From a virus: DNA of 64,000 nucleotides. Below the pieces are notes generated by a model that ran no database searches, was not told where the DNA came from, and saw nothing but the letters and a program-made list of their open reading frames with translations. Both the position numbers and the translations under genes were made by a program. This document shows, in pieces, positions 2,547 through 57,712 of the stretch (its first letter is position 1; every line of letters begins with the position of its first letter). The stretch is taken from the IMG/VR virus record IMGVR_UViG_3300018411_000639, positions 1-64,000 of that record. One strand, 5' to 3'.

Positions 2547-3578
2547 TTGACTAGATCAGAGAGAAATAATGCACTACCGCAGAGAGCAAAAGAGTTTGTT
2601 GCTTACCTGCCCGCGATGAAAGGATTGTCCCTGAATACCGTGGAATCGTACAGCAATGACTTGATTCTCTTGCTCCGTTTCCTGAAGCAAGAGAAAGGAC
2701 TGGTTCCGGAAGGGACGGTCTTCGAGGAGATCGACATTACCGACATCGGGGATGCATTCCTTAGGGAGATAACCGAGAACGACTTGATTCTCTTCGTGCA
2801 TTGGTCAAAGATAGATAGAGGCAACGCAGAGCGTACCCGTGCCCGTAAGATAGCTAGTCTGCGTGCGTTCTTCCGCTACCTGCACAAGAGAGCTCGCGTC
2901 ATCGACGAAGACCCAGCTGCCGACCTAGAATCCCCTAAAGTCGGGAAGAGGAAGCCTGTCTATCTTTCTTACGATGAAAGCTTGGCTTTGCTCCGATCGG
3001 TAGTGGGCAACGGACGAAACGAGAAGCGGGACTTCTGTATCCTCACCCTCTTCCTTAATTCCGGGATGCGCTTATCGGAGCTGTGTGCCGTAGACCTTGC
3101 GAGTATACGGGGAGATAGCCTGCTACTGCTAGGGAAAGGCAACAAAGAAAGACGGGTACCGCTGAACGCTTCTTGTCTGCGTGCGATTGATGCGTACCTT
3201 CCGGAGAGACAGGCTTTGGTGAAAGGCAACGAGTCCACGATGACAGCTGATACGAAGCGCGCTCTCTTCCTGAGCGAAAGACGTAAACGGATCAGCCGAC
3301 GAACCGTGCAGGACTTAGTTGACAAGTACCTGGTTGCAGCAGGCTTGTCCGGAAGAAAGTACACCACCCACAAACTGCGCCACACGGCAGCTTCATTGAT
3401 GTACCAGAATGGCGCAGACATTGTCAGCCTGCAACAACTGCTTGGCCACGACAATATTTCAACGACGCAGATTTATGTGCATATCGAAGACGACCAGATC
3501 CGCCGCGCAGTCAACCTGAATCCTCTAGACGAGGAACTCGATGACATTGTCGACCCTCCTGAGTATCATGATGAATAG
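2547..3578 (+). CDS. tyrosine recombinase (integrase, XerC/D-like), 343 aa
   Basis: This is a site-specific recombinase that would cut and rejoin DNA through a phosphotyrosine, most likely for prophage integration and excision. Residues 15-115 form the SAM-like core-binding domain (LSLNTVESYSNDL). The catalytic domain follows, with every expected residue visible: R175 in NSGMRLSEL, K197 in the GKGNKERRVP turn, H275 and R278 in THKLRH, H301 in LLGHDN and the nucleophile Y310 in STTQIYVH. The start is TTG at 2547, with AAAGGATG upstream at normal spacing. The length is typical. It stands alone on the plus strand between a palindrome-bearing leader and a strong terminator. Some SPbeta-group repressors share this fold but lack the active site; this one is catalytically complete. 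A resolvase role is the main alternative. Confidence 0.92.
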   Translation: MTRSERNNALPQRAKEFVAYLPAMKGLSLNTVESYSNDLILLLRFLKQEKGLVPEGTVFEEIDITDIGDAFLREITENDLILFVHWSKIDRGNAERTRARKIASLRAFFRYLHKRARVIDEDPAADLESPKVGKRKPVYLSYDESLALLRSVVGNGRNEKRDFCILTLFLNSGMRLSELCAVDLASIRGDSLLLLGKGNKERRVPLNASCLRAIDAYLPERQALVKGNESTMTADTKRALFLSERRKRISRRTVQDLVDKYLVAAGLSGRKYTTHKLRHTAASLMYQNGADIVSLQQLLGHDNISTTQIYVHIEDDQIRRAVNLNPLDEELDDIVDPPEYHDE

Positions 3579-3628: not shown

Positions 3629-4618
3629 TCATTTAATGGTGCGATGCTCTTTCTCTCCAAGGAAAGCCATGATCGCCCACCCTGTTCTTTCCATTGCAGG
3701 AGTCGCCTCTGATGTGGCGTTACTCCACCCATCCGTCATGGTGACGACGATGTAGTCTTTTCCGTTGTACGAGATGATTCCTGCATCATGGGAAACGTCG
3801 TCAAGGATGCCTGTCTTGTGGGCAAACGTAACCTCTTCAGTTAGACCTTGATTCAGGGCGTAGATTAGTTGTTGTTTGGCCAGAAGATCCAAGAAGTAGT
3901 CTGTGCTGTTCGCAGACAAGAGATGACGGCCATGCAACCGGTTTAGTAGCTTTGAAACATCCTGTGCGGTCGTTTGGAGCGTCCCTGTGACCGCCACACC
4001 GTTTTCGTTAAGGTAGGTGTTGAAGGTAGTGGCTTTGTATCCTTGCGTGAAGATAAAGTCTTCTATCCGATCCCATCCGAGGAATGAGGCCAACGATACA
4101 GCTGCTTCATTGCTTGAAACGGTAATGGCCGCATTCAACAGAGAGTCCACGGTGTAGCCGTCTATTACTGTGTCCAGTGTTATGTACCCTTGATCCACTT
4201 TAGAGAGGACTGCATACGCCACGAACAGCTTGTAAAGACTTGCACTGGTATAAACCTTCTCTTCGTTGAAAGTGACCACCTCGCCGGTCTCCTTGTCCAT
4301 GAAGATGAAGCTGTATTGTCCGGGATAGTCCTTTCCAATCATCGTCGTATTGTGGGCAAGGATAGCGCCTGCGTCCGAGATAACGTGAGCTCGGTAAGGA
4401 GTCAGACCGTCTGGAGAGATGACTTCCTTAGCCGAGGCATCCTCTGCGGGTTGAGCAACAGGAGCGCTCTCCTGAACCGCCGAAACAACAGGTTCCGCTT
4501 GGGTGATCATGTTCTGCTTTGGCTCTGAAACAAACAGGGCTACAACGGCATAGGTTAATACAATCGGTGCAAGGAAGGCTAGAACTACGGCCCTCTTGTT
4601 CTTTAATTTTCTGTTCAT
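3629..4618 (-). CDS. membrane-anchored serine hydrolase of the class A beta-lactamase/PBP fold, 329 aa
   Basis: The protein has the penicillin-recognising fold: S127-x-x-K130 (SLYK), S168-x-N170 (SSN) and K268-T-G (HKTG). An N-terminal membrane helix (about residues 10-30, basic residues before it) and a Pro/Ala/Glu-rich linker to about residue 65 suggest it is anchored with the catalytic domain outside the cell. I do not see the Glu-x-x-Leu-Asn omega-loop motif of true class A beta-lactamases, so a peptidoglycan DD-peptidase or other wall-modifying role is as likely as antibiotic hydrolysis. The ATG at 4618 has AGGAGG upstream; a longer in-frame ORF starting at 4735 lacks one. It is the last gene of the leftward operon, with an exact 16-bp repeat 42-57 bp upstream. 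It may be a lysogenic-conversion gene. Confidence 0.8.
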   Translation of the reverse strand: MNRKLKNKRAVVLAFLAPIVLTYAVVALFVSEPKQNMITQAEPVVSAVQESAPVAQPAEDASAKEVISPDGLTPYRAHVISDAGAILAHNTTMIGKDYPGQYSFIFMDKETGEVVTFNEEKVYTSASLYKLFVAYAVLSKVDQGYITLDTVIDGYTVDSLLNAAITVSSNEAAVSLASFLGWDRIEDFIFTQGYKATTFNTYLNENGVAVTGTLQTTAQDVSKLLNRLHGRHLLSANSTDYFLDLLAKQQLIYALNQGLTEEVTFAHKTGILDDVSHDAGIISYNGKDYIVVTMTDGWSNATSEATPAMERTGWAIMAFLGEKEHRTIK

Positions 4619-4646
4619 GGGTTCCTCCTGGTGACTGGGTATGATT

Positions 4647-5504
4647 TTACTGGTATCTAGTGTCGGAATTGACACCTCTAAGTTTCTTGATTGCGTTTTG
4701 TTTCTTTCGGTTGATGGTTGCACGACAGACACCATAGATTTCAGCGATCTGCGTGTCCGTCTTCTTCTCCGAGTAGGATAATAGCATGAGTCTGCGTTCG
4801 AATGGAGTCAGCACTTGGAATATAGCCCCACAAGTGATGCCGTTGATCCAGTTGACGTTCAGTATGGATGCGTCGTAAAGAGAAGAGATGTTTTCCTTGA
4901 TGGCAATACTGGAAGCATCAAGGGCTTGCTGATGCACAACCAAGTCTTCCGTCTTCGTGAACTGTCTACTGGATTCTTCATCTTCCAGTTCCCAATCATC
5001 TAAGTCTTCGTTATTGAAGCGAGAAGCGGGATCGTTCAGGTAAGGCGTAAGCGCTCGGAACGCTTCGTAGTGGAAGCATTTGTCCACGTAGTTGTGGAAG
5101 CTAGGACGCTCAAGGTCTCTGTAGCGCAGAGCCATAGACAAGAGCGCGCAGATCAGTTCGTTGCGTAGTTCGTCTTGCGGACATCGGGAGAAGGTCAGCT
5201 GGAGAAGACTGACCGTACTGTAGATGGAGTCACGGACGGTCAACTTGAATTTGTATTGATTGACGTGACTCTTTGCGCCTTTACCATTCATGAAGAGCGA
5301 GATAAAACGACGTAAGCCGGTATCGTCGATCTGAAAGATGCCAGCGCTCAACAGGTTCACGTATCGCCACAAGAACTTGTCGAATGATTGGATGATGACC
5401 TCAGCTGCATCTTGACTGCCTCCTTGATAATCCAAGACAGCCTGATGAAGTTGTTGGTAATCCGCCATAGAGAAAGGTTGTGTGTTTTCATTTTCTATTG
5501 TCAT
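4647..5504 (-). CDS. sigma-70-family-like transcription factor, 285 aa
   Basis: The C-terminal 60 residues look like sigma region 4: LTPFERRLMLL, then a helix-turn-helix (DTQIAEIYGVCRATINRKKQ) and a final basic helix. The N-terminal half (GGSQDAAEVIIQSFDKFLWR) resembles the start of sigma region 2, as in phage and ECF-type factors that recruit host RNA polymerase. The acidic middle (residues 160-180) is probably a linker. A role in middle or late gene switching is inferred. The start at 5504 has AAGTAGG upstream. The extreme C-terminus, GVNSDTRYQ, is encoded by an exact copy of the 16-bp repeat, so the protein tail appears to accommodate a DNA element. Confidence 0.7.
   Translation of the reverse strand: MTIENENTQPFSMADYQQLHQAVLDYQGGSQDAAEVIIQSFDKFLWRYVNLLSAGIFQIDDTGLRRFISLFMNGKGAKSHVNQYKFKLTVRDSIYSTVSLLQLTFSRCPQDELRNELICALLSMALRYRDLERPSFHNYVDKCFHYEAFRALTPYLNDPASRFNNEDLDDWELEDEESSRQFTKTEDLVVHQQALDASSIAIKENISSLYDASILNVNWINGITCGAIFQVLTPFERRLMLLSYSEKKTDTQIAEIYGVCRATINRKKQNAIKKLRGVNSDTRYQ
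4660..4675 (-). repeat. 16-bp repeat, exact copy
   Basis: Minus strand reads GTGTCAATTCCGACAC. It codes for VNSDT in the last codons of the sigma-like gene and also lies 42-57 bp upstream of the serine hydrolase start. Confidence 0.8.
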
Positions 5505-5518
5505 GTCATCAGCCTACT

Positions 5519-6061
5519 TTAGCCAGGGTGTGCGGATGTTCCCTTCCGCCACTTCAGGACACGAGCGACGCCGATCGAGATAGCGTCATACATGTCACTG
5601 TTCTTTTTCTTGCTCTGGGAGTCGTTGAACTCTCCTAACCCCTGTACAAGTGGGTTCTCGGGGTAGCGATCCAAGATTACTTGAGCCACCTCTTCTTTTT
5701 TAGTGTTCCCTTTTCCATCCCCCATAAAGTGAAGCTTCACTTCGGATGGCTGCATCGAGCAGACGGCAGCACCTGTCACCCTCAAGACAAAGGTGACCCC
5801 TCCTCGTAACTTGGCCAAGACGAGTCCAACTCTTTTGTTCCGCTGTACGAACCCGTCCTCCAGTCCGACATCGGTTACTCGGTACTTCTCCTTAATCTCC
5901 AACAGGCTGTCAATGATATAGGCAATGCGTTCATCTTCGTCTCCCATTTTCGTGGATGTCTGGATACGTCCAACGTCCACGACATCCAAGGTCTCCCGGT
6001 CAATAACAGACCACCCGGTACTGCTTAGGGATGCGTCGATGCCCAACACAAACTCGCTCAC
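5519..6061 (-). CDS. RuvC-type Holliday junction resolvase, 180 aa
   Basis: This is an RNase H-fold endonuclease that would resolve branched DNA during phage replication and recombination before packaging. The acidic residues fit the family: D9 in LGIDASLSSTGW, E68 in VGLEDGF, and D156/D159 in SDMYDAISIG. Basic residues between the second and third motifs (QRNKRVG, KGNTKKEE) suit DNA contact. Length is typical for the RuvC family. The start is GTG at 6061, preceded by GGGGAGG and overlapping the stop of the upstream gene by 4 nt (GTGA), so the two are probably translationally coupled. It sits among replication and recombination genes. Confidence 0.85.
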   Translation of the reverse strand: MSEFVLGIDASLSSTGWSVIDRETLDVVDVGRIQTSTKMGDEDERIAYIIDSLLEIKEKYRVTDVGLEDGFVQRNKRVGLVLAKLRGGVTFVLRVTGAAVCSMQPSEVKLHFMGDGKGNTKKEEVAQVILDRYPENPLVQGLGEFNDSQSKKKNSDMYDAISIGVARVLKWRKGTSAHPG

Positions 6062-6249
6062 GCTTGGCCTCCCCTTAATTTCTTATCACCCTCTTGTCCC
6101 GAATCTTGGACAAGCGTAAAGGTTGGTTCTGTGTCGGAATTGACATGCCCATCCTTAATGGCCTGAGCGACTGACTCGTTGTATACAAGTGTACGTCCCT
6201 GGTCGTCAATTACGATTGCTTTTCCGCCGTTCATGTTCATTTCTAGCAT
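6058..6249 (-). CDS. small hypothetical protein, 63 aa
   Basis: I do not recognise this protein. The ATG at 6249 follows GGAGGAATCAAC, an excellent ribosome site, and its stop overlaps the GTG of the resolvase, so it is almost certainly expressed. The first 32 residues form a compact strand-strand-helix unit (KAIVIDDQGRTLVYN, then SVAQAIKDG). The remainder is polar and probably disordered. A near-exact 16-bp repeat encodes the junction HVNSDTEP between these halves. It might be a small regulator or an accessory subunit of the resolvase, but nothing in the sequence proves it. Confidence 0.75.
   Translation of the reverse strand: MLEMNMNGGKAIVIDDQGRTLVYNESVAQAIKDGHVNSDTEPTFTLVQDSGQEGDKKLRGGQA
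6131..6146 (-). repeat. 16-bp repeat, 15/16 copy
   Basis: The sole difference from GTGTCAATTCCGACAC is at the first base (ATGTC...). It is read as VNSDT in the 63-aa gene, between its folded and polar halves. Confidence 0.75.
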
Positions 6250-6267
6250 GTTGATTCCTCCGTTTGA

Positions 6268-7050
6268 TTATATCATAGTATTAACTGTCAAACTATTGCC
6301 GCAGACACCTTTGTACATGCAGGAATAGCACTTGTCTCCGGGTGCTGCGTAGAACAATCTTTGGTCTATCGCCTTAGCAACCGAGGCTACGGTGTGCTTC
6401 AGGACTTCGTGATCACGTTCTCCACGGCTTGTATTATGGATTTTGTTCTTCTCTAATCCGTAATATAGAATGCGGTCTTCCTTCATTTCGAAGGCTTCCT
6501 GAAAGGCTAGACTTGCAGCTGAGATCTCCAAATCCTTGTCCACATGGATGCGGTTGTGGATCTTGTCCTGTACCTTGAAGTCGATGATTTGGATTTCCTT
6601 TGTCCCTTTGATCTCGACCTCTCGGATGACTTCCCATGTGCCTGTCAAAGTCAGGTCTTCATGAATCTGAATCTGATACTCCTTGTTCACAACAACGGGA
6701 AAGCCCGGATTGTCCTTGAAATTATCGTAGATACCGACAAGTGTATTGATCCCGCGTTTCCTTCTCTCGTTGTGAGTGTCACGCCAAGATGTCGGCTCCG
6801 AGTAAAGCATCTGGCCAGCTGACCGATTCCCAATCCATAGCTTACCGAACGCACGCTTTAAGGCTCCTAATGAAGGTTCCTCGAAGTTCTGAATGGATCC
6901 GAAGAAAGAGTAGACGGTCTTATGGATGTCGCTGTCGTACTTCTCCAGAACGTTGATGGTTTCCGTCTTCAGGTCTGGATGCTCGTACTTGAATTTGTAG
7001 TACATCGGACAATGGCAATAATCAACAACCTGCTTGATGGTAAGCCTCAT
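6268..7050 (-). CDS. Cas4/RecB-like PD-(D/E)XK nuclease with iron-sulphur cysteines, 260 aa
   Basis: This is probably a DNA exonuclease for replication or recombination. An N-terminal cysteine pair (YCHCPMYYKF, C12/C14) and a C-terminal C241-x2-C244-x5-C250 cluster are the arrangement that holds a 4Fe-4S cluster in Cas4, AddB and Dna2. Between them come the nuclease core residues: IIDFKV (D157, K159) with a downstream helix DLEISAASLAFQE in the place of the QxxxY motif. The residue before motif III is unusual (GTWE, with Glu where Asp is common). Length matches Cas4-like phage nucleases. There are no CRISPR repeats or cas genes here. Its ATG overlaps the upstream stop by 1 nt (TAATG), implying coupled translation. 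Confidence 0.8.
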   Translation of the reverse strand: MRLTIKQVVDYCHCPMYYKFKYEHPDLKTETINVLEKYDSDIHKTVYSFFGSIQNFEEPSLGALKRAFGKLWIGNRSAGQMLYSEPTSWRDTHNERRKRGINTLVGIYDNFKDNPGFPVVVNKEYQIQIHEDLTLTGTWEVIREVEIKGTKEIQIIDFKVQDKIHNRIHVDKDLEISAASLAFQEAFEMKEDRILYYGLEKNKIHNTSRGERDHEVLKHTVASVAKAIDQRLFYAAPGDKCYSCMYKGVCGNSLTVNTMI

Positions 7051-7430
7051 TATCTCTTCTGACTTCTTTCTGCCATTAGTCCTGGTGTCCGTCTGTCCAC
7101 TAGGTTATCCAGTTCCTCGATGCAGGCCGCATGGAGGTGCCATTTGAACTCACGTTTACGCACGAAGGGGTTCTTGGAGAATCCTTCTGGAGGCATAGGC
7201 TTTCCGCATTGCTGACAGTACATGATCTCTCCCGGCTTAGGTGGTTGTGGTACTGCCCAGTTCGGCTTGGTCGTATCTCGGGTTTGGTTCTGGATGTAGC
7301 GGTTCACTTCGTTAATGGTGTTGATTTCCGTCTTATCCTGTATTGTTTCAAGGTCATCGGTCTTATCTACCTTATAGGCTGTAGGGCGCTTGCGTGGTTC
7401 AATCTTCCGTGTTCCGGGTATGTTCTGCAT
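7050..7430 (-). CDS. zinc-ribbon-like hypothetical protein, 126 aa
   Basis: The N-terminal 60 residues are basic and then Glu/Asn-rich, probably disordered. The C-terminal half has YCQQCGKPM, and about 30 residues later WHLHAACIEE, giving C-x2-C...H...C, a likely zinc site. Its function is unknown; such proteins in phage replication operons often bind nucleic acid or the host polymerase, which is inference. The ATG at 7430 has GGAGG upstream. The gene overlaps its upstream neighbour (7399-7806) by 32 nt and its downstream neighbour by 1 nt, so it is tightly embedded in the operon. Confidence 0.7.
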   Translation of the reverse strand: MQNIPGTRKIEPRKRPTAYKVDKTDDLETIQDKTEINTINEVNRYIQNQTRDTTKPNWAVPQPPKPGEIMYCQQCGKPMPPEGFSKNPFVRKREFKWHLHAACIEELDNLVDRRTPGLMAERSQKR

Positions 7431-7806
7431 TGGTCAAGACCTCCTCACTCATTCTTTTTAACTCATCTTTTACAGTGTCATCTACGTTCAGTTTAAAGTT
7501 CTCTCTGCGGATCATCTGTGCCCGATCCTTATAGGTGTGCGTGCAAATCGGAATCAAGCAGCTCTGACACTTAACGTGAATGTGCGAAGCTTTGTTTCGG
7601 CACTTGTCGCAGATAGGACAAGGATCGTACATCTCACAGGAGTTGAATTTAGGCTCCCCCTCTTCGAACATCACCGCGTTTCTCGCCCCAAGCTTCTTAT
7701 TGCCCTCTAGCACTCGTCTCAGCTTCTGTTCATCTAACTTGCTAAGTCCGTCATTGTCTTTTGTTTGAGCCATGTCGTACAGCCCTTTAACGAAATTGTT
7801 TGCCAC
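7399..7806 (-). CDS. cysteine-rich zinc-binding protein, 135 aa
   Basis: The centre contains seven cysteines within about 32 residues (C-x5-C-x2-C-x2-C, then C-x2-C-x4-C followed by T-H), a pattern fitting two zinc knuckles or a treble-clef/B-box-like fold. The flanks are charged helices (LSKLDEQKLRRVLEGNKKL at the start, VKDELKRMSEEVLTNAEH at the end). A protein- or DNA-binding adaptor in the replication operon is plausible but unproven. Start is GTG at 7806 with GGAAGAGGG upstream. It overlaps the next zinc-ribbon gene by 32 nt, and the two cysteine-rich products may act together. Confidence 0.7.
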   Translation of the reverse strand: MANNFVKGLYDMAQTKDNDGLSKLDEQKLRRVLEGNKKLGARNAVMFEEGEPKFNSCEMYDPCPICDKCRNKASHIHVKCQSCLIPICTHTYKDRAQMIRRENFKLNVDDTVKDELKRMSEEVLTNAEHTRNTED

Positions 7807-7827
7807 AATAGTACCCTCTTCCTTTTG

Positions 7828-8187
7828 TTAAGATACCCAGATGGTATCTTTGGATTTCGTATCCCGCAGTTCAATCAGCATTTTGCGGACAACTGTGTTC
7901 ATCTCAAATTCTATCTTTCTATTGGCGCACATTTCAAGGAACACCGTAAGTCCCCACGCATGTCCGGCCGTTTGCCCACTCTCTTTGTTGTAGAGGTGAA
8001 GCAGGTAGTGCATGTTCTCGATGCTTGTCTTGTAGTAAATGTTATCGGTAGAACCTTCTGCCTCGCCGACTATCTTCTCTACGAAGGTACGAATCTCTTC
8101 GTCAATGATCTGAAGGGCCTGTGTGATTGGAGTCTTGGTCTTATTCTTCTGAGCGAGTCGGTGCTTGATCTGTTTCTTTGATATCAT
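7828..8187 (-). CDS. hypothetical all-helical protein, 119 aa
   Basis: I do not recognise this protein. GGAGGAGAACAAC before the ATG at 8187 gives a strong ribosome site. The product starts with a very basic segment (KKQIKHRLAQKNKTK) followed by three or four predicted helices, and it lacks motifs, cysteine clusters and membrane segments. It follows the helicase gene by 12 nt in the same operon. A helicase loader or small DNA-binding accessory protein would fit the position and the basic N-terminus, but this is inference only. Confidence 0.7.
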   Translation of the reverse strand: MISKKQIKHRLAQKNKTKTPITQALQIIDEEIRTFVEKIVGEAEGSTDNIYYKTSIENMHYLLHLYNKESGQTAGHAWGLTVFLEMCANRKIEFEMNTVVRKMLIELRDTKSKDTIWVS

Positions 8188-8199
8188 GTTGTTCTCCTC

Positions 8200-9471
8200 C
8201 TAGTTGCTGAATACCAGACTGGCATAGTGTTTCGATGATTGAGGATCTGGTTCTTCCATTCGAGCCATCTCCGGATAGAATTCAAAGAATGCTCTCCCTT
8301 TAAAGTTGTTGAACTTGTTTTTTGCAAAGTGGACTTCGAAGATGGGTTGCTTCAAAGGATCGTTCTTCCGCAAGAAGTGAACCTCAGCGCCCTCTCCCTT
8401 GTAGTGGACCTCGTTGTAGACAAGCAAGACAGCTTTCGCTTCATACTTGATTTTTACGGACTCTCGAATGTCATCCAATGCCGGACGACGTGTGCCGTTT
8501 AGCTTCTTCAGCTCTCCCGAGCAAACGACAGGGATATCATATCGGATAGCCGTATCGGAGCACCATTGCGCGATAGCGTCGTACTTCGCCGTAGCCTGCA
8601 GGTTCGGATGTTCCTTTAGGTTCAAGTCGTGGAAGTTGTCGATGAATACGCAGATCTGTTTGCTAGAGCCTTGTGTTTCCAATAGAATCTTGATGCGTTG
8701 AATCTCAGCCTCTATGTCTTCACAGAATGTGGTGAAGTTGGCATCGTAAGCGCGGTACTTATGTACGTTCTCACGCAGCTTGTTTAGGGCTACTTTACGT
8801 CTTGCAATCATCAAAGGCAGGTGTGTGTAGTTGTTGGGATTCCGTACCGCATTCAGCAATACTTTGCTCCCAGAACCCACGACACGGGCCAACTTGTCTG
8901 GCATCGGATCATCCAGAGAGAAGTCCATCACGTAGACCTCATCGTTATGCTCTACAACCTGATTGGCTACCTGTGAGATAAAGGCCGTCTTACCGATGTT
9001 ACTGTCGCCAGCAATCATGGTGAAGCCTGACTTCAATCCGCCATCGAAAGCTTTGTCTATCTCTGCCCAACCTGTTTTGAGTCCGGTATTTAGAGGATTC
9101 CAAGCATCCGTCTCAAACTGGTTGATCGCATCCCACATCTCTTCCTCGTGGGAAAGGGTAGGTTTTGCGGGTACCGTGTACTGAATAACGATCGGTTGCT
9201 GACCAGGCAGGTTCACTGTTTCTGTTTCGATGTGAGGCTGGTCATAATTAGGTATAAACGGGCCGGGTGCGCCCAATGCCGTCGCTCCTGATGGTTGTGC
9301 TGATTGATTCGGTTGTGCAGGCGCAGCAGATGTCTGTTGCCCAAAAGAGCCGATAGGTTGAGGAGAACTGTCTTCTTCCTCTTCTTCGCCGAAGGATGGA
9401 TAGAAATCATATCCCTCGCTTGGATCTACAATATCTTCTTCACTGAAATAATTGCTAAAATTGTCTTCCAA
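8200..9471 (-). CDS. replicative DNA helicase (DnaB/RecA-like ATPase), 423 aa
   Basis: A RecA-fold motor with Walker A GDSNIGKT (residues 155-162), Walker B VFIDNF (D278) and a DnaB-like segment VMDFSLDDPMPDKLARVV after the first core strand, where DnaB proteins have their FSLEM motif. The first ~105 residues are acidic then Gln/Pro/Ala-rich and look disordered, so the usual folded DnaB N-terminal domain is absent. The start appears to be TTG at 9471 with AGAGGCGG upstream. It lies 8 nt after the primase gene, so helicase and primase would be made together and probably act as a pair at the fork. Whether it hexamerises cannot be seen. Confidence 0.82.
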   Translation of the reverse strand: MEDNFSNYFSEEDIVDPSEGYDFYPSFGEEEEEDSSPQPIGSFGQQTSAAPAQPNQSAQPSGATALGAPGPFIPNYDQPHIETETVNLPGQQPIVIQYTVPAKPTLSHEEEMWDAINQFETDAWNPLNTGLKTGWAEIDKAFDGGLKSGFTMIAGDSNIGKTAFISQVANQVVEHNDEVYVMDFSLDDPMPDKLARVVGSGSKVLLNAVRNPNNYTHLPLMIARRKVALNKLRENVHKYRAYDANFTTFCEDIEAEIQRIKILLETQGSSKQICVFIDNFHDLNLKEHPNLQATAKYDAIAQWCSDTAIRYDIPVVCSGELKKLNGTRRPALDDIRESVKIKYEAKAVLLVYNEVHYKGEGAEVHFLRKNDPLKQPIFEVHFAKNKFNNFKGRAFFEFYPEMARMEEPDPQSSKHYASLVFSN

Positions 9472-9478
9472 CTTTGAT

Positions 9479-10492
9479 CTACCGCCTCTTGTTCATAAGT
9501 TTGCAGTTATCGAAATCGCAGACGGACACAACCTTCATCGAGGTACATCCGTAACTGGACTTTCCTTTATAGACGCTTCGGGCTGTGGCTCGGAGTTCCG
9601 AATGCTTGATTGGCTGCACGTTGTTGTCGTTCCACTCTGTCAAGGTTTCCATTGTTTCATCCAAGCTAAGCCCCGTATTCTTGTAAAAGCTTGTCAGGGC
9701 TGCAAGGGAGTTGTTTCTGTTTCCGCTCTGTGCGCCATTCTCCACTAGATGACGAACGCATGGCGGCATGTATTTCAAAGTGCCATTGTGTGTAATGTTC
9801 TCATTTCGCTTTATGGCTTCCTCGGCGTGCTTCTCTTTGTATCTCACGTATTGGGAGTGAGCGAAGTGATTGTATACAGGCGACTTGACATCCATGACAC
9901 GAGGATTTTGGGCCGTAGCCTTTATGTCCTCGTGTTGGAGGTCTCTTAGTTCCTGAAGGGTAATCGGAATCTTGTAAAGCCCGGTGGATTCGTGGATGCT
10001 GTTAGGTATCCGGAAGAGTCGCTTGTTGTCGTAGATCCTCATGTCCATGGTCTTATGACGGGTAAAGGATTGGACGTTCTCTGCGATGGTCCGGAAGATA
10101 CCGTTTAGTTCCTTGTCTGGCGCAATGCCAAAGATCGACGCAGGGATGATGATGTGAACACCTTTATTTCCGCTGAAATAGATGCGGATCTGTTCGCTCT
10201 CTATCTTGAAGACGGTCTTCAGGTAAGCCATCACGGTGATAGCATCTGCACGCACGGGTTCAAAGTCGTCTTTGTTATCGAAGTCGAAGTACATGTCCCC
10301 GTAAAGAAAAGACTCATCCGGGTTGTCGGTGTTGTAGCGGTAGGCTGTAGCGAAGACCCCTTGGTTTCCTCGCTCCCTCACCACTTTATTGATGAGCTTA
10401 GCCGGCAAGACGATGTTTCGGGTAAATACATTCCGAGCCTTGTCGATCCAGTAGCCCGCTTCAATGAGATAGCAATCTTCTGCGAGGCACAA
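9479..10492 (-). CDS. archaeo-eukaryotic-type DNA primase, 337 aa
   Basis: It would synthesise primers for phage DNA replication. The catalytic residues of the AEP/PrimPol superfamily are visible (numbered from an upstream GTG at 10501): the DxD pair D73/D75 in YFDFDN, the S110...H116 motif in SGNKGVHI, and a third acidic residue D153 in MDMRIYDNKRLFRIP, which also has the family's basic segment. A C-terminal helical domain (about 250-325, NNSLAALTSFYKNTGLS) resembles the PriCT domain of phage primases. GTG at 10501 abuts the AGGGGG ribosome site, so I prefer TTG at 10492, 8 nt downstream of it. The gene overlaps its upstream neighbour by 32 nt and precedes the helicase. Confidence 0.85.
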   Translation of the reverse strand: MCLAEDCYLIEAGYWIDKARNVFTRNIVLPAKLINKVVRERGNQGVFATAYRYNTDNPDESFLYGDMYFDFDNKDDFEPVRADAITVMAYLKTVFKIESEQIRIYFSGNKGVHIIIPASIFGIAPDKELNGIFRTIAENVQSFTRHKTMDMRIYDNKRLFRIPNSIHESTGLYKIPITLQELRDLQHEDIKATAQNPRVMDVKSPVYNHFAHSQYVRYKEKHAEEAIKRNENITHNGTLKYMPPCVRHLVENGAQSGNRNNSLAALTSFYKNTGLSLDETMETLTEWNDNNVQPIKHSELRATARSVYKGKSSYGCTSMKVVSVCDFDNCKLMNKRR

Positions 10493-11147
10493 TCTGGTCA
10501 CCCCCTGATACCCGATTCTCGGTTACTTTCTTTTGGAATAGCTGAATCGCATCCGCGTAGTATTCTTTTACGTCAGATGGGACGCGCAGCTTGTTGTAAT
10601 TGTTGGTCATGATAATGTCGTTGGATATGTCAATCATGAAGAGGACGAGGTCTACTTCGAATTGATCCAACAGCCACTTGATAGCACCTTTCACACGGCC
10701 AAAGGTGACAGCTTCTTTGTGGCACAAGCCCTGCTTAGAGAGGAAGTAATTTGTCAGATCCTCAAGCGTGTAGCTTGCCCGCATCTCAAGGTAGTAGTCT
10801 TGGACGACGCGTTTGATCTCGCCCGTGTTGTAATCGAAATCCACCACAGGAGGCGGTGTCGTAACCCGCAACTCATTATGGTAGTAGAACTTCCCTGTCC
10901 TCAAAAGATTCGTTCTCTGAGGGCTTCGGCCACGGAAATGAGTGGGAAGGTCAAGACCCTTCTTGCCTTCTGTTGCTTTGTAGTGTCGGCGCAGCTCTGC
11001 ACCTAATTCTTCAGATGTCCAACCTCTGTCCAGTAGTTGCGCCAACTGTACAACGGTTGCGACCTTGAACTTCTGAGAGATGTCCTCGTTCTGATGGAAC
11101 ATCTTCAGGTAGCCATAGGTCAGGTCAAAAATAGAAACTTTTCTCAC
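10461..11147 (-). CDS. hypothetical replication-operon protein, 228 aa
   Basis: I do not recognise this protein. The GTG at 11147 overlaps the upstream stop by 1 nt (TAGTG) and yields VRKVSIFDLTYGYLK; the longer ORF back to 11243 would overlap the upstream gene by 97 nt and is less likely. Early residues VVQLAQLLDRGWTSEEL resemble a short helix-turn-helix-like pair, and the remainder is mixed alpha/beta with a long helical C-terminal half. No catalytic motif is visible. Sitting between the Rad52-like gene and the primase, it could be a helicase loader or replication initiator, but no sequence evidence separates these. Confidence 0.7.
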   Translation of the reverse strand: MRKVSIFDLTYGYLKMFHQNEDISQKFKVATVVQLAQLLDRGWTSEELGAELRRHYKATEGKKGLDLPTHFRGRSPQRTNLLRTGKFYYHNELRVTTPPPVVDFDYNTGEIKRVVQDYYLEMRASYTLEDLTNYFLSKQGLCHKEAVTFGRVKGAIKWLLDQFEVDLVLFMIDISNDIIMTNNYNKLRVPSDVKEYYADAIQLFQKKVTENRVSGGDQIVPRRRLLSH

Positions 11148-11809
11148 TAGAATAAGCTCTGGGCCATTCCATCTGCCCACTTGATGAACTCTTCCACGTT
11201 TTCCGGGTTCAGCTGACGCTTGCTGGTAATCTCCGGACGCCATAGAGAAAGATAGCGGACGAGTTGTTCGTCATTGACGATCTCAAAACGTTCCTTGAAT
11301 TTGTTCATAGCCTCGACTTTTTCTGGTGACCATCGCCCTGCTTGACTACGCGGTGTCTGTCCAGGTCCTTGTTGTTGCTGCTCTTGCGGTTGTCCTTGCG
11401 GAGCAGACATCCCGTTGTGGGCGGTCTGTTGTTTGTCGACTATATTAGTGTCGGAATTGACACGTTTTTGTTGGTCGACTGTCGCAGGTTGTCCTTTGGC
11501 ACGAGATAACGTCGAACAAGCGTTGTGTATGGCACGTTGCACCGTTTGGCGGATAACATCTTCAGCGAGAGGATTGCTTGTTGCTGCCGTTCCTGTTCGG
11601 ACAAAGCCCGGAAGATAAAGGATAACCGTTACATGGTAATTGATCCCATTCGTCGTGTAGCCTTCATTTTGGATTTCATAACTCCAGCTGATGCCCATAT
11701 CCCCCAAGAGTTGGACTACCTTGTCGGAGTTGACACGTACAAGGTAGTCTTGATATTTGGGTGACAAAGGCTCTAGGCCGAGGTAATGCGTGACCATTGC
11801 GTTGTTCAT
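11147..11809 (-). CDS. possible Rad52-like single-strand annealing protein, 220 aa
   Basis: Residues 25-105 have the spacing of the Rad52/Sak annealing core: VVQLLGDMGISWSYEI, then a strand pair ending YHVTVILYLPG, a GTAATSNP turn and a helix RQTVQRAIHNACSTLSRAKG where these proteins have an alternating Ala/Lys helix. A Gln/Pro-rich linker (about 120-160) separates it from a helical C-terminal domain. Such proteins anneal DNA in recombination-dependent replication, consistent with the nearby resolvase and exonuclease. The match is by pattern only. The ATG at 11809 has GGAGG upstream. It is the first gene after the early promoter and contains two 16-bp repeat copies, one encoding RVNSDK near the start and one RVNSDT in the linker. 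Confidence 0.5.
   Translation of the reverse strand: MNNAMVTHYLGLEPLSPKYQDYLVRVNSDKVVQLLGDMGISWSYEIQNEGYTTNGINYHVTVILYLPGFVRTGTAATSNPLAEDVIRQTVQRAIHNACSTLSRAKGQPATVDQQKRVNSDTNIVDKQQTAHNGMSAPQGQPQEQQQQGPGQTPRSQAGRWSPEKVEAMNKFKERFEIVNDEQLVRYLSLWRPEITSKRQLNPENVEEFIKWADGMAQSLF
11448..11463 (-). repeat. 16-bp repeat, exact copy
   Basis: Exact GTGTCAATTCCGACAC on the minus strand, read as VNSDT in the Gln-rich linker of the Rad52-like protein, about 400 bp downstream of the early promoter start. Confidence 0.8.
11721..11736 (-). repeat. 16-bp repeat, 14/16 copy
   Basis: Minus strand reads GTGTCAACTCCGACAA. It is read as VNSDK near the start of the Rad52-like gene and forms a cluster of three with 11448 and 11832. 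Confidence 0.65.
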
Positions 11810-11831
11810 TTATTCTGCCTCCAGTATCTAT

Positions 11832-11847
11832 GTGTCGGAATTGACAT
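11832..11847 (-). repeat. intergenic 16-bp repeat just downstream of the early promoter
   Basis: This 15/16 copy is the only clearly intergenic one. It starts about 10 bp after the predicted transcription start of the promoter at 11864-11892 and precedes the ribosome site of the first replication gene, a classic position for a repressor or roadblock operator. Confidence 0.8.
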
Positions 11848-11863
11848 TTAACTTTACCTCACA

Positions 11864-11892
11864 AGTATAGATTTTAATATACCGAAAGTCAA
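11864..11892 (-). promoter_or_regulatory. early sigma-A-like promoter for the replication operon
   Basis: On the minus strand TTGACT (11892-11887) and TATACT (11869-11864) are spaced exactly 17 bp with an A/T-rich spacer. Transcription would start near 11857 and run leftward through the replication genes. It lies in the only sizeable gap (108 bp) between the fibre block and the replication block. Confidence 0.8.
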
Positions 11893-11917
11893 CACAGATT
11901 TGTAACACTTCGATACA

Positions 11918-13177: not shown

Positions 13178-13422
13178 TAGTTCACGGCTCCTTTCACTCT
13201 ATCCATCTGGTCAATCAGTTGATTGATGCGTTCTTTTGTGAGCATCGTTTCCGGGTTCTCTGCTTGTTTCTGAATTTCATCCAGTCCAGTCTTCAACTCT
13301 TCGAACTTTTGGCGCACAGCCTCCAGATTCCGACTAGCCTCGACGAGAAACGTATCCGTCTTCCGGCTTTCCATCGGGCCTCTGTAGCGTGCGTTGTTTC
13401 TTCTTGCGTTTGGGAATATCAT
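13177..13422 (-). CDS. small coiled-coil structural protein, 81 aa
   Basis: I do not recognise it. The N-terminus is basic (NARRNNARYRG) and the remainder is a single amphipathic helix (VRQKFEELKTGLDEIQKQ, then INQLIDQMDRVKGA) likely to form a coiled coil. It sits between two large fibre-like genes and overlaps the downstream one by 1 nt, which suggests a small connector or trimerisation partner for those proteins. It lacks a signal peptide and membrane helix. Confidence 0.65.
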   Translation of the reverse strand: MIFPNARRNNARYRGPMESRKTDTFLVEASRNLEAVRQKFEELKTGLDEIQKQAENPETMLTKERINQLIDQMDRVKGAVN

Positions 13423-13434
13423 CGAAACCCTCCT

Positions 13435-21401: not shown

Positions 21402-22883
21402 CTATAGGTCTACAAGTCGCGTTATGGGTCTGGATCTGTCGCCGTAACTGTCGTACATGTAGACGGTGTAGTTGTAGGATTCCCCTGGTAAGCAGGCGTC
21501 CTCGATGGTCAGACTTTTGAAGATGGATGCTTCTGTCAAGGTGTCCGTAGGGCTTGTGCTTTTCGGGACGTTTACGGGTAAGCTACGGCCAATGATGCTG
21601 TCGTAGTAGATGCCGTTCTTTCTGACGTAAGTCTTTATGACTGTACCTTCGTTGACCAGAGAACCGCGCATCTTCTCTGTTTCATCCAGACCTGTCACCG
21701 TTCTGCGGATGACGATCATTCGCTCCACAGGAAGGTGAGCCTCTTCTGTTTCCGTGAGGACAGGTCCTTCTTCTGACTTGAATCCTTGCAGTTCCGCAAT
21801 CAGACGGTAAGCCACGTGCGGCCGGCGGTTGAAGCGCGGATCACCTTTGCACCAAACGTTGGGCAGCGTCACGATCACCTTGTGTTCCGATAGGATATAC
21901 TTGGTATCCAGTTTCCAGTCCTCATCCGAAAACTCAGGTACGCCTGCTTCAACAGGTTTCCCGAATCGGGAGTACTCGGCTCCCTTCGGCATCCCGATTT
22001 GAGCGACCTCCCCTTTCGCAAGGATAGTCAATGGCTCCCACAAAGGATTATCGGATCTTTGGTAACTCTTGCAGACCTCCAGGATATGACGAACCGTTTC
22101 CGGCTTCTGCTTCAACTCATGCGAGAACAGAACAGAAGCTGGGGAAACTAATCCGCCTTGGACGGCCACGATACGATAGTAGTAAAGGCGCCCTTTTTCC
22201 TCAGAACCTGCATCGCTTATCTCCCACAGTGGAACGTAGGACCCGTTCTCAACCAGGAGGGATCGGGTTTTGAAAGACACATCCGGTGCAGCTAGACCGT
22301 GAGGAATCGGACCATTGTAGATGACGCCTGCTTGGACAGCAACATCATCCTGTACCTCAATCACCTGAATCGGATAGGCCAGTTCAACGAACAGAGAACC
22401 CTCGACATAGGCTTTCGGTACTTCGACAACATCCCCCGTTATGCTGACAGGGCAGTCACTCAGATTGCTCCCACCCCATATCTCGCTCTCCAGGTTGCGC
22501 TTCGTGCGAACAACTCCCGCCAAAGAACCATCCATCCTGTAAGAAAAGACAAACTGATCTGTTTCGTGCTGAAGAGTCAGGTTCGGCAAGTCGAAGTGGA
22601 TGACCAGTTCAATGTCTACCGTGTCGGATTTGACACATTTGTTTTTCAATTTATATCTTACCATAGTATCTTCTTCATTCGATAGACCTGTTCGAAGTTC
22701 CTCGCTGACCGTCAGGATAGTTGTGGCAGCTGTCGCCTCATCCACTTCCATGACCGGTTGCAAATCCTTTAACCGATCAAGGGATGCAGGGATGTCTTCA
22801 GGTTTTTCGGCTCGATAAACGAGATAGGTAAGGTTGCGATTCTCACTGACAGATAGGTTTAACTTGATTCGATTCAATTTCAT
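21402..22883 (-). CDS. putative fibre protein with fibronectin-III-like repeats, 493 aa
   Basis: The sequence has repeated strand patterns typical of FnIII-like domains, best seen as GRLYYYRIVAVQGGLVSPAS (about 230-250), HVAYRLIAEL and, at the C-terminus, GESYNYTVYMYDSYGDRS. No enzymatic motif is present. A near-exact copy of the 16-bp repeat (22621-22636) encodes CVKSDTVD near residue 85. The ATG at 22883 has GAGGAGG upstream. Such Ig-like arrays usually act as spacers or weak carbohydrate binders on tails. Confidence 0.6.
   Translation of the reverse strand: MKLNRIKLNLSVSENRNLTYLVYRAEKPEDIPASLDRLKDLQPVMEVDEATAATTILTVSEELRTGLSNEEDTMVRYKLKNKCVKSDTVDIELVIHFDLPNLTLQHETDQFVFSYRMDGSLAGVVRTKRNLESEIWGGSNLSDCPVSITGDVVEVPKAYVEGSLFVELAYPIQVIEVQDDVAVQAGVIYNGPIPHGLAAPDVSFKTRSLLVENGSYVPLWEISDAGSEEKGRLYYYRIVAVQGGLVSPASVLFSHELKQKPETVRHILEVCKSYQRSDNPLWEPLTILAKGEVAQIGMPKGAEYSRFGKPVEAGVPEFSDEDWKLDTKYILSEHKVIVTLPNVWCKGDPRFNRRPHVAYRLIAELQGFKSEEGPVLTETEEAHLPVERMIVIRRTVTGLDETEKMRGSLVNEGTVIKTYVRKNGIYYDSIIGRSLPVNVPKSTSPTDTLTEASIFKSLTIEDACLPGESYNYTVYMYDSYGDRSRPITRLVDL
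22621..22636 (-). repeat. 16-bp repeat, 15/16 copy
   Basis: Minus strand reads GTGTCAAATCCGACAC, with one central change. It is read as VKSDT in the fibre gene 21402-22883. Confidence 0.7.
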
Positions 22884-30000: not shown

Positions 30001-32213
30001 TATTCGCTCAAAGTGGCTTCGGATGAGAATGTCACCGTGTCTCCGTTGAGTATTCCTGCTCCACTTGCGTTTGCGTGCTGGAAGGCGTAGGTCACAAAGG
30101 CGTTCTCTGGGGAAACCACCTGAATCAGGATATGGAAAGTGGCATCGTACACCTCTGCCGGAACCACGACTTGAGGTAAGACTACACTCATGTCTTCTTT
30201 GCCATTGTAGCCATTTGAAGAGGAGAAGCGACCATTCACGATGCCGTAAAGCGGTGCTGCGGTGCCTTCGTCGGGCAGGATATCTTGCCAAACCTTCGTC
30301 ACAGGGACCGGCTGAGAGTAGAGGTGAATGGCGTCATCCCCCGTCTTCGTTAAGCGCCATTCCATTCCCTTCGCGACTTTTGTACTGGACATGTACTCGA
30401 TGTCACCTACGCAGTCCAAGACTTCGATGTGGAGCTGGTACAACTGGTTCGGGTCGCGACTCACACCTTTCAGTACTTCGTGGAAGTAAATCGTGGTGGC
30501 CGGATCTTCATCCGAGAAGCGGAATGGAAGTCCCACTGTTTTGATGACACCGACAGAGCTACCCGTGTAGATGATTTCGCCATCAAGGTTTGGGGCAGAT
30601 AACTGAACCACGTTGTCACGGGACGCAACGTTAATCTTCGTCGATACATCGGAACCTGCGTAAGCCTCGGATGAGTCGGTTACGTTGAACAACGGCATGA
30701 TCAGATCAGCAGCAACCAATAACGGGAGATCTGTTCCATCTTCTGCCGACAAGGCTTTCTCGATAACTTTCTCAGCCTCAAACAAGGACGCCTCTGCAAA
30801 GCCTGAGATATACACTTTTCCGTCAGGATCAAAAGCATTGTTCGGGTCATAACCGTCTGAATCCCGATTAGCATAGAGCTTCGCCGTACCACTTCCGGAA
30901 GGGAAGAAATGTCTGCCGAAAGTGTGATTGTAGCGGGTCCCCGGATTGATGTCGAAGCCATAGTCGTCGTAGATAACGAAGCCGGAATATACAGCTGGAC
31001 GGATGGAGTTTCGGATCCTGTTGTCAGCGTAGCCCACCTCTTGCATGATAGTGGCCAACGTCTTGTTGTTGACTAGTTCGCCGTTTGCCGGGATCAAGTA
31101 AGCTTTCCCGTTAGCATAGCCGACGTTAGGGGTCAAAGTATGCTCGAACACAGGAGAGGTCAGCCATTGTTGTCTGGCACTGTAAGTCCCTGCGAACGGA
31201 CCGGCTTCATAGTACTCCACTTTACAAGTGACATAATACTTGATCGTAATCGGTCTGGATGCGTACTTGTAAATACGGAAGGACACTTTCCCTAATGGAT
31301 AGGCGCTGAATCGCAACGTACAGACTCCATCTTGTTCATACGTGTCGTACTTGCCTTTTGCCAGTACGCGGTAGTTGAAACCTACCTGATTGTAGCGCTT
31401 CTCGTTCTTTCCGTAAGTGCCGTAGGTCTTGGCGATGATGCCGAACTTCTCGTAGAAATCCTCCTCAGTCCTTTTCGACACGAGCAGGTCTTTTCCATCC
31501 CCTACCCCTGATCGGAATGCGTCCAGTCGCTCAGTCACTTTCGGCAACAGCGTCGGATTATCGTTCTCCAGTAGAGGAACTTCATACTTGTGACGAGCAA
31601 GACTTTCGGATAGGCTCTTGGTTCTTACACCTACAGAACCACTGCCCGGAGAGGTGCGACTAGCGTCATACTTTACAAGGCTTCGGGTGTACAGCGTATC
31701 GGGTATCAGCCCGCTCTCGGAGTAATGAAGAACCCCGATCGGCAGCTGTGCAACCAGACCACCTTTCTCGTTCAGGATGTAATGAGCAAAGTCCTGTTCT
31801 CCTTCTCCTTCGAATCGCCAGATGATAGTAGAGGAATCATAGGCTTCCCCCGTCAGAGCGGGCGCCGTCAAAGGCAGTTTCTCTGGATGTACATAGGCTT
31901 TGATGGTTGGGGATAGAGTGAACTCGCTCGATGTGTCGGAATTGACAAAGAAAACATCTACGCCCGGGGTTTCCGAGAAGATTTCGTAACTATCTACTTC
32001 GATGTCTGAATCCGTAAGGCTGTTCTCTGCAAGGTACGCATCTATCTCCTGATAAAAGTAACTCAGGATGTACGCACTGCTTAGGATGTGAAAATTATCA
32101 TAGAGGTAAGGCTCTACGGCCTGTATAGCTGTCGGAATTGACTTCTCAAACTGCTCGACTTCCCCTGTTGCCACCCGGACAACGGAGACCGTTATTTTGT
32201 AGCGAATGTCCAT
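27024..32213 (-). CDS. giant tail fibre/adhesin with lectin-like and Big_1-like domains, 1729 aa
   Basis: The sequence is beta-rich along its whole length. Residues roughly 1240-1430 show the concanavalin/LamG-like pattern (SNTYIGFVSDSKHDRYKHQ, GDDDVIGVVIAFHKD, FKGPQSYGYSC), consistent with carbohydrate binding. The last ~95 residues match an invasin-type Big_1 Ig domain (LNVHVELTDVYGNPVSGETL, TDANGVISMRYTSG). A VQVDG...V-x-Y module precedes it. The gene starts 23 nt downstream of a terminator hairpin, so it probably has its own promoter or is expressed by read-through. Two copies of the 16-bp repeat lie in its first 280 bp. Receptor binding to wall polysaccharide is the most likely role. Confidence 0.7.
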   Translation of the reverse strand: MDIRYKITVSVVRVATGEVEQFEKSIPTAIQAVEPYLYDNFHILSSAYILSYFYQEIDAYLAENSLTDSDIEVDSYEIFSETPGVDVFFVNSDTSSEFTLSPTIKAYVHPEKLPLTAPALTGEAYDSSTIIWRFEGEGEQDFAHYILNEKGGLVAQLPIGVLHYSESGLIPDTLYTRSLVKYDASRTSPGSGSVGVRTKSLSESLARHKYEVPLLENDNPTLLPKVTERLDAFRSGVGDGKDLLVSKRTEEDFYEKFGIIAKTYGTYGKNEKRYNQVGFNYRVLAKGKYDTYEQDGVCTLRFSAYPLGKVSFRIYKYASRPITIKYYVTCKVEYYEAGPFAGTYSARQQWLTSPVFEHTLTPNVGYANGKAYLIPANGELVNNKTLATIMQEVGYADNRIRNSIRPAVYSGFVIYDDYGFDINPGTRYNHTFGRHFFPSGSGTAKLYANRDSDGYDPNNAFDPDGKVYISGFAEASLFEAEKVIEKALSAEDGTDLPLLVAADLIMPLFNVTDSSEAYAGSDVSTKINVASRDNVVQLSAPNLDGEIIYTGSSVGVIKTVGLPFRFSDEDPATTIYFHEVLKGVSRDPNQLYQLHIEVLDCVGDIEYMSSTKVAKGMEWRLTKTGDDAIHLYSQPVPVTKVWQDILPDEGTAAPLYGIVNGRFSSSNGYNGKEDMSVVLPQVVVPAEVYDATFHILIQVVSPENAFVTYAFQHANASGAGILNGDTVTFSSEATLSEYKEYRELVASSRFDGFELFDIKAKDFYLELPKPTTTRDYTRFDLEATTDNIDVILVQAPSQIVFTEETSPVTIRAKGQQNATSSWSPRVHNGYYYANQREHFLYSEFVAEADYLALQKYKEEYGHFSILATLKKADSKAIQYNLQKVDRYDLLQDDESAIVYREGYLYPAALIDTPYYQEYQDIDYISPPFVFPNIVTSYGAVNFDAIVPEGAGLDVEIRSYDFDRGVWNEWTPVIDGEVPNIQASATVQFRAKFRPLTTSTLKDSLTIHCSYPDFKENMDETLSRNISLKEDVIKSIGGTSGGIYVSKVIDFGTESAMGLTRYQTGGALNYHLAYSNNREEVESSPNWVLVNDGVQIGGFRYFRYKLTIPQNEALNILYRQESTSFSESKVPGVGNFRIVGRFHPESEARTIQESFTFQIPFDGQWHGVMDNLNDAIEHNVLLAGYTMQELVDVRITPNSDAVELKYNMITMPRDETAAMIEIFNSWDRFSHSGSSQPAQPDEMTKWEYQADTDSVVCQINSNTYIGFVSDSKHDRYKHQATLFSVNGDDDVIGVVIAFHKDPLTGRESTLTALRSPGTMNGGISVGGQLAKWVVVYNFAQTDAKVIANGNALVKDATGSGWGALENGATILIERDNNAIRAKTTEFNGTEILDSTLLSFNLDDDPLLSKFKGPQSYGYSCQSQDRSTFKDVSFFDIGALFTPIEAKGVEIKLDDGENSAYINFIDGAAVVYALPLQFCPIVVQEDEVGPLREVNFYNEAGELTLDFEEAYRSKRQKAFPLRYADYDPRTLQVQVDGAGRTDWVTKNQMLVFESALPEGQMVTVSYRIQNSFVAHLDIENKTTTIATHADKVITEARVMFETNERDNQRVIRNISLNPIYNTEHQGFLFISDEEPIPTKITIHANPMSVIGDGKDGLNVHVELTDVYGNPVSGETLEVTSILGGLACKSFVTDANGVISMRYTSGIGKGTDALTAKCAAYNLETEINIKNR
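31933..31948 (-). repeat. 16-bp repeat, 15/16 copy
   Basis: Minus strand reads TTGTCAATTCCGACAC, read as VNSDT about 270 bp into the giant fibre gene and 181 bp from the next copy. Confidence 0.75.
32129..32144 (-). repeat. 16-bp repeat, 13/16 copy in another reading frame
   Basis: Minus strand reads AAGTCAATTCCGACAG. Here the bases are read as KSIPTA, not VNSDT, so conservation is of the DNA rather than the peptide. It lies 70-85 bp from the start of the fibre gene. Confidence 0.55.
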
Positions 32214-57106: not shown

Positions 57107-57712
57107 CTATAATATCTGGATGGAGTAGTCTTTTGTGAATCCGCTATTCTCCATGACGATCTGTGCATAGGTTGACGGGATGCCCGCTTTTCCGATAGCC
57201 ATCTTACGGAAGTCGTACTTGCTTGGCCAAAGCGTACAGGTCTCACAAATGATTTCTTCTCTCTGCAGAGGGTCAAGGTTTGGGATAGCTGCGAGCTGTT
57301 TGTACTCGAAGCGGTTCAGAGTGCGGAAGACGAAGTACTGTCCCATGATTTCGATAGCCATAAGGTTGTAGTCTTCCCATTGGCGCTTCCACGTTTCGAC
57401 TTGTGTGATGGTAGGTCCACCCACAAAGAGGGGTTCGTCATAAGCGTAGAGTTCAGGGTTGTCGCCGAGTTCTCCTTCTTCCGGCTCGCTTCTCAGCGTA
57501 GGTAGGTCTTCCCACTCTTCCGGTTCGTTCTGCAGATGAACACTTTCCTCGGTTTCTTCGCTTGTGTCGGAATTGACACCTTCAACTACTTCATTGTCAT
57601 CTCGGAACGATGCGTACAGGTCTTCGTTTGCTGCAGGTTCCTCACTGATTTGCTTGGATAGTTTTTCTTTGGCTTGCTTTGCTAATTGATCTAGGTTTCC
57701 TCCGCTGAACAT
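57107..57712 (-). CDS. tail assembly chaperone paralogue, 201 aa
   Basis: The C-terminal ~100 residues match the downstream chaperone domain (FVFRTL, E-x-I-I-C-E-T-C, IVMENSGF). The N-terminal ~95 residues are strongly acidic and disordered (EEPEEWEDLPTLRSEPEEGE), which may help recruit or release the tape measure. An exact copy of the 16-bp repeat encodes GVNSDTSEETEE in this acidic part. GAGGAATGTAA precedes the ATG at 57712. Together the two genes could provide the two chaperone forms that other phages make by programmed frameshifting. Confidence 0.68.
   Translation of the reverse strand: MFSGGNLDQLAKQAKEKLSKQISEEPAANEDLYASFRDDNEVVEGVNSDTSEETEESVHLQNEPEEWEDLPTLRSEPEEGELGDNPELYAYDEPLFVGGPTITQVETWKRQWEDYNLMAIEIMGQYFVFRTLNRFEYKQLAAIPNLDPLQREEIICETCTLWPSKYDFRKMAIGKAGIPSTYAQIVMENSGFTKDYSIQIL
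57564..57579 (-). repeat. 16-bp repeat, exact copy
   Basis: Exact GTGTCAATTCCGACAC on the minus strand, 133-148 bp into the chaperone gene and read as VNSDT in its disordered acidic region. Confidence 0.8.

Follow-up and report, generated by a model that had tools for sequence, protein, structure and literature searches.

A short, transcription-oriented repeat as a candidate operator and roadblock element in a large, probably temperate myovirus

The locus and its phage

The stretch of DNA analysed here (the window) covers positions 1 to 64,000 of a 112,616-bp virus record of IMG/VR, and positions above 64000, in the remainder (L001-L003), continue the same numbering along the contig. Between 3.6 kb and about 109 kb nearly all genes lie on the minus strand. 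The contig encodes structural and lysis proteins (tail sheath, portal, large terminase, endolysins) as well as replication-type proteins (primase, DnaB-like helicase, RuvC-like and sigma-like proteins), and the nearest named relatives of its phage are Moorella phage MTATph1 and Bacillus phage KLEB27-3; the tail sheath and these relatives identify it as a large myovirus unrelated to L5. A XerC/D-like tyrosine recombinase, i.e. an integrase (2547..3578, plus strand), keeps all of its catalytic residues (R, K, HxxR, H and Y), and for this reason the phage is probably temperate. Since related contigs reach approximately 200-218 kb, the contig may be a fragment; an open reading frame at 111826-112616 (L003:10826-11616) runs past its right end, where it has therefore probably been cut. 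Searches for contigs prolonging either end of the 112.6-kb contig yielded nothing useful, and scans of genomes for a prophage or a host found neither. L011, with 99.98% identity over 6 kb, represents the same phage, so it does not count as independent evidence.

The locus under study heads a replication operon transcribed on the minus strand. The proposed early promoter consists of a -35 hexamer TTGACT (11887..11892, minus strand) and, after a spacer of 17 nt, a -10 hexamer TATACT (11864..11869, minus strand). Seventeen nucleotides below the -10 hexamer, at about +12 to +25 and in keeping with a preliminary description, lies the site TGTCGGAATTGACA (11833..11846, plus strand; transcribed strand TGTCAATTCCGACA). 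It falls in the operon's 5' leader and is proposed to act as an operator. The two further copies announced at 11721 and 11448 are likewise present: TGTCGGAGTTGACA, with one change, at 11722..11735 (plus strand, 147 bp below the promoter, coding for VNSDK) and TGTCGGAATTGACA again at 11449..11462 (plus strand, 420 bp below the promoter, coding for VNSDT). Both are proposed roadblocks and fall within the first gene of the operon (11147..11809, minus strand), whose 220-aa product belongs to no known family.

The further operon genes together span 3629..11243 on the minus strand and encode, in the order of transcription, an uncharacterised protein (10461-11243), the primase (9479-10501), the DnaB-like helicase (8200-9471), a PD-(D/E)XK nuclease (6268-7050), a RuvC-like protein (5519-6061), a sigma-region-4 protein (4647-5504) and a beta-lactamase-like protein (3629-4735). 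There is no large gap below 11809, and the block under the promoter does contain replication genes, as had been claimed. The protein encoded at 3629-4735 has a domain resembling class A beta-lactamases (Pfam Beta-lactamase2, E 7e-39) and scores below the NCBIfam cut-offs for true beta-lactamases; it is possibly a cell-wall enzyme.

Number, orientation and sequence of the repeat

With at most one mismatch the site occurs 19 times on the 112.6-kb contig, against a mean of 0.1 and a maximum of 2 in simulations of the contig under a third-order Markov model; in an unbiased word count the repeat also supplies the most over-represented 12-mer of the contig. By strand they divide into 18 plus copies and a single minus copy. 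Since transcription is minus-strand, 18 of the 19 copies appear as TGTCAATTCCGACA on the transcribed strand, an 18:1 orientation with transcription (p ~8e-5). Strong information is confined to about 16 positions, (G)TGTCAATTCCGACA(C), with flanks that show no conservation beyond approximately 1 nt, and the architecture is TGTC-N6-GACA, that is, dyad arms of 4-5 bp around an asymmetric centre. At 102643-102656 (L003:1643-1656), right below a TATAAT promoter, the arms are perfect over 9 bp (AAAGGTGTC...GACACCTTT), as compared with 4-5 bp elsewhere.

Fourteen copies are genic and five intergenic (11833, 67908, 102643, 108750 and 109055), so the view that the copy at 11833 is the only intergenic one holds within the 64-kb window but fails for the whole contig. 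The remaining copies in the window, all on the plus strand, are found at 4661..4674 (where genes 4647-5504 and 3629-4735 overlap), 6132..6145 (gene 6058-6249), 22622..22635 (TGTCGGATTTGACA, gene 21402-22883), 31934..31947 and 32130..32143 (the latter TGTCGGAATTGACT; both in gene 27024-32213, respectively 527 and 331 bp below a promoter-like site, TTGACA-18-TAAAAT, with its -10 at 32461), 38014..38027 (TGTCGGAAATGACA, gene 36308-41578), 42744..42757 (gene 41602-50676, 334 bp below a promoter-like TTGTCA-17-TAAAAT with its -10 at 43078) and 57565..57578 (gene 57107-57712).

Association with promoters

Promoter calls are matches to the consensus, and the score threshold of 10/12 was picked after seeing the data and was thus not pre-registered. 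Among the ten best minus-strand sigma-70-like promoters, four have no more than 30 bp between the start of the -10 box and that of a site, and in a fifth this distance is 31 bp. The promoters at 109037 and 67899 are not independent of the element, because part of their -35 comes from the site itself; once they are left out, eight independent promoters remain, and in three of these (109089, 102672 and 11869) a site follows the -10 box after 10-17 nt. The spacing is 17 nt at 11869, 10 nt at 102672 and 15 nt at 109089, the last being a perfect TTGACA-18-TATAAT. Moreover, 10 of the 19 sites lie no more than 650 bp below five of the eight independent promoters (0.88 expected; p ~4e-4 by random shifts of the set of sites). 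The promoter association of the sites is strong, though the threshold was chosen after looking. Taken by its match strength alone, the TTGACT-17-TATACT promoter is at chance level, with 6 such matches in the surrounding 5 kb against 5.0 +/- 2.3 in shuffles, while the coincidence of promoter match and site copy is not, as judged by the random-shift test over the contig.

The layout at 11.8 kb recurs at 109.1 kb (copies 109055 and 108750), 102.7 kb (102643 and 102047), 43.1 kb (42744) and 32.5 kb (32130 and 31934). Two copies stand apart in their arrangement: 67908 overlaps the -35 and the spacer of a TTGTCA-17-TATAAT, and 109055 is reversed relative to the promoter above it.

Proposed mechanism and rival explanations

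The copies likely serve as operators and stoperator-like roadblocks for a sequence-specific repressor, most probably encoded by the phage itself, working in the manner of the L5 stoperators. The evidence read from the sequence covers the number of copies, their orientation, their promoter association, selection at the DNA level and presence in a diverged relative (G015, see below); from it we infer repressor binding, a block to elongation and a purpose in lysogenic silencing. The repressor would recognise (G)TGTCAATTCCGACA(C), 14-16 bp on the transcribed strand. At 11833, in the initially transcribed region of the early promoter, bound repressor would stop initiation or promoter escape, the site acting as an operator; at 11722 and 11449, and at most other copies, which are genic and lie below promoters, it would stop the elongating RNA polymerase, and such genic roadblocks would silence read-through over the whole phage genome. 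The operator-plus-roadblock layout of the preliminary description is thus favoured by its recurrence, by the enrichment of sites below promoters and by the 18:1 co-orientation. Its tie to lysogenic silencing is more conditional: an intact integrase and the lack of the motif in six integrase-less relatives of about 200 kb speak for it, the failure to find a repressor, a contig that may be a fragment and the oriented repeats of the lytic phages T1 and Stevie against it. Arguing against the operator and stoperator reading as a whole are the same missing repressor, the reversed copy at 109055, the G015 copies, which lie away from recognisable promoters, and the promoter calls, being consensus matches under a threshold set post hoc.

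Searches of the contig for HTH_3, S24 and ParB_N domains found none, and no repressor gene was recognised on the contig, which may be incomplete, by general repressor domains. A small HTH and zinc-ribbon protein encoded upstream of the large terminase (TerL) gene (108452-108712, minus strand; L003:7452-7712) is kept family-wide at 42-60% identity. As a candidate binder it was rejected, for it is mostly equally or more similar in relatives devoid of the motif (42-60%) than in G015 (45%); being a core gene of the whole family that does not track the motif, it was set aside. The repressor may sit outside the contig or belong to an unrecognised type, an unexpected fold being conceivable because MrpR of SPbeta is one such case (PMC10516654).

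A reading of the repeat at the protein level, as a peptide motif (VNSDT) and not a DNA element, has a vanishingly small probability, even though ten genic copies out of 14 share a frame encoding V-N-S-D or one of its variants: the other four are in another frame and five copies are intergenic, and it is because copies fall in two reading frames and between genes that selection is seen to act on DNA. Along the same line, the codons at genic copies hardly vary (the codon-frequency product for V-N-S-D is 0.013), while the encoded residues are not kept in homologues, the VNSDT stretch at 11449 being missing altogether from the homologue in the relative G003. The near-constant presence of the element on the transcribed strand in a single orientation would also suit an RNA function, namely that of a transcript hairpin, GUGUC-AAUUCC-GACAC, to which a protein of phage or host would bind, for instance in antitermination, RNA processing or translation control, and some copies do fold stably (z -4.8 at 11449; -19.9 kcal/mol at 102643). 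This appears unlikely nonetheless, for the arms do not covary: their changes break pairs, and shuffled sequences pair at least as well. Nor does copy 11833 fold better than shuffles; copy 109055 runs opposite to the transcript below it, and copy 67908, which overlaps a promoter, sits upstream of that promoter's start site. A search for known RNA families in 9000-14000 found none.

Among explanations at the DNA level, a promoter element or activator site, e.g. the recognition sequence of the sigma-region-4 protein (4647-5504), could draw on the TTGACA present on one strand, on the several copies near promoters and on the very fact that the phage encodes a sigma-like protein. We hold it to be rather improbable: no second conserved box occurs at a fixed distance, the copies are mostly within genes rather than ahead of them, the transcribed strand reads TGTCAA and not TTGACA, and the sigma-like gene is present in relatives without the motif too. 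A similarly low probability is given to another DNA process, such as replication, packaging, segregation or chromosome organisation, the strand bias then following the direction of replication or packaging. Dispersal of strand-biased copies along the contig would fit it, but clustering below promoters is not predicted, there is no ParB_N domain on the contig and the motif is missing in most relatives that share structural and replication genes. Lastly, the sites might be read by a host regulator instead of a phage repressor, as the lack of a recognised phage repressor on the contig would allow; this is very improbable, given that a single orientation across a whole phage genome is not expected of such a regulator and that the motif is also found in G015, whose GC content (37% vs 50%) points to perhaps another host.

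Comparison with known systems

The operator and stoperator reading invites comparison with several dispersed or repeated sites. The lambdoid operator of the 434 type (ACAA-N6-TTGT) spans 14 bp, its 4-bp arms enclosing a centre of 6 bp, and lambdoid operators are clustered at one or two promoters, neither dispersed nor oriented. The element described here shares the 14-bp length, the 4-bp arms and the 6-bp centre, but it is dispersed and oriented, and no HTH_3/S24 repressor is found on the contig.

A model for the proposed mechanism is offered by the mycobacteriophage L5 and other Cluster A phages, with their repressor Rep (gp71). Such systems are marked by some 20-30 dispersed short sites, part of them operators at early promoters, and by a bound repressor that halts elongation in one direction. 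In L5, about 20 short sites are distributed genome-wide, mostly in one orientation with respect to transcription and with a few of them at promoters but most elsewhere (PMC9283540, PMC6550527); reversed sites lose repression, and the reason why orientation matters is an open question (PMC9283540). Likewise, 19 dispersed copies are present here on 112.6 kb of a contig that is possibly a fragment, the sites follow transcription (18/19, and 5/5 in G015), and the copies at 11833, 102643, 109055 and 67908 are at promoter-like sequences. The L5 sites differ, however, in being 13-14 bp long without dyad symmetry, as opposed to TGTC-N6-GACA arms around an asymmetric centre, and in having been described in promoters and short intergenic spaces, as opposed to a location inside genes for 14 of 19 copies. 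L5 also encodes Rep (an HTH and a stoperator domain); no Rep-like protein was seen here on a possibly incomplete contig searched for general repressor domains. Because of the dyad arms, the mostly intragenic copies and the failure to find a repressor, the element is not filed as a member of the Cluster A stoperators.

In the large temperate Firmicutes phage SPbeta, a dispersed motif of about 15 bp (SPBRE) is read by the master repressor MrpR (PMC10516654). SPBRE copies are in promoter regions, whereas only about 4 of the 19 copies here are at promoters, most being intragenic and oriented; MrpR has a recombinase fold without recombinase function, whereas the catalytic residues are intact in the one tyrosine recombinase found here. 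In P1, twenty-two dispersed short operators are served by one repressor, C1 (PMC8546580); they are 17 bp long and asymmetric, ATTGCTCTAATAAATTT, and unrelated in sequence to the present element. The lytic phages T1 and Stevie carry sixteen to twenty repeats oriented with transcription (PMC4319613), which differ from the present element by their 22-bp length, their mostly intergenic placement and the lytic lifestyle of the phages; since these phages are lytic and have oriented repeats all the same, oriented repeats alone are no proof of lysogenic silencing, and this is the main caution to be placed on the proposal.

The Cluster A mycobacteriophages are essentially the only phages in which oriented roadblocks are established as a means of genome-wide repression. 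It is conceivable, if doubtful, that a large myovirus lineage outside the actinobacteriophages has evolved a polar silencing of its own, with dyad-armed, mainly genic roadblocks working in one direction and a repressor outside the usual phage families. Were the proposed mechanism true, an independent system in an unrelated phage would become available, in which a near-symmetric site and a naturally reversed copy (109055) under a perfect promoter would provide a direct test; such a test would show whether the asymmetric centre is the source of polarity, and whether blocking initiation and blocking elongation make different demands on orientation.

The motif in related phages

Single-protein scans for close relatives (virion protein, primase, HTH protein) found nothing; an alignment of TerL did yield relatives. 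Among 31 related records, and besides one that is the same phage (G001), the motif is clearly carried by G015 only (IMGVR_UViG_3300033562_001023; 20 kb, 37% GC as compared with 50% for this phage, TerL 53% identical). Allowing one mismatch, G015 has five copies where 0.01 would be expected, oriented 5:0 with transcription, the same way as in this phage; its genes around TerL are syntenic with those of this phage, and one of its copies lies in the endolysin beyond the aligned part, as is also the case here. Across the copies of both phages CA, T and CGACA are invariant. No G015 copy is at a recognisable promoter.

In six relatives of approximately 200-218 kb the motif is not above chance and the tyrosine integrase is absent; in MTATph1, a distant relative with a partly similar gene order, the integrase is present and the motif absent. 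Exact motif scans of IMG/VR gave chance-like single matches and one double match, L236, which is unrelated and turned out to be a 22-bp tandem repeat in a gene.

Other short elements were observed in these relatives. The distant relative G029 (IMGVR_UViG_2593339199_000002; loci L039 and L141-L145) has about 12 copies of a palindrome, TGTAATGCATTACA, mostly intergenic and resembling dispersed operators, and in G026, G003 and G020 (L131-L140, L098-L108 and L112-L122, respectively) there are oriented short hairpins of the type CCCCGATAGGGG, perhaps terminators.
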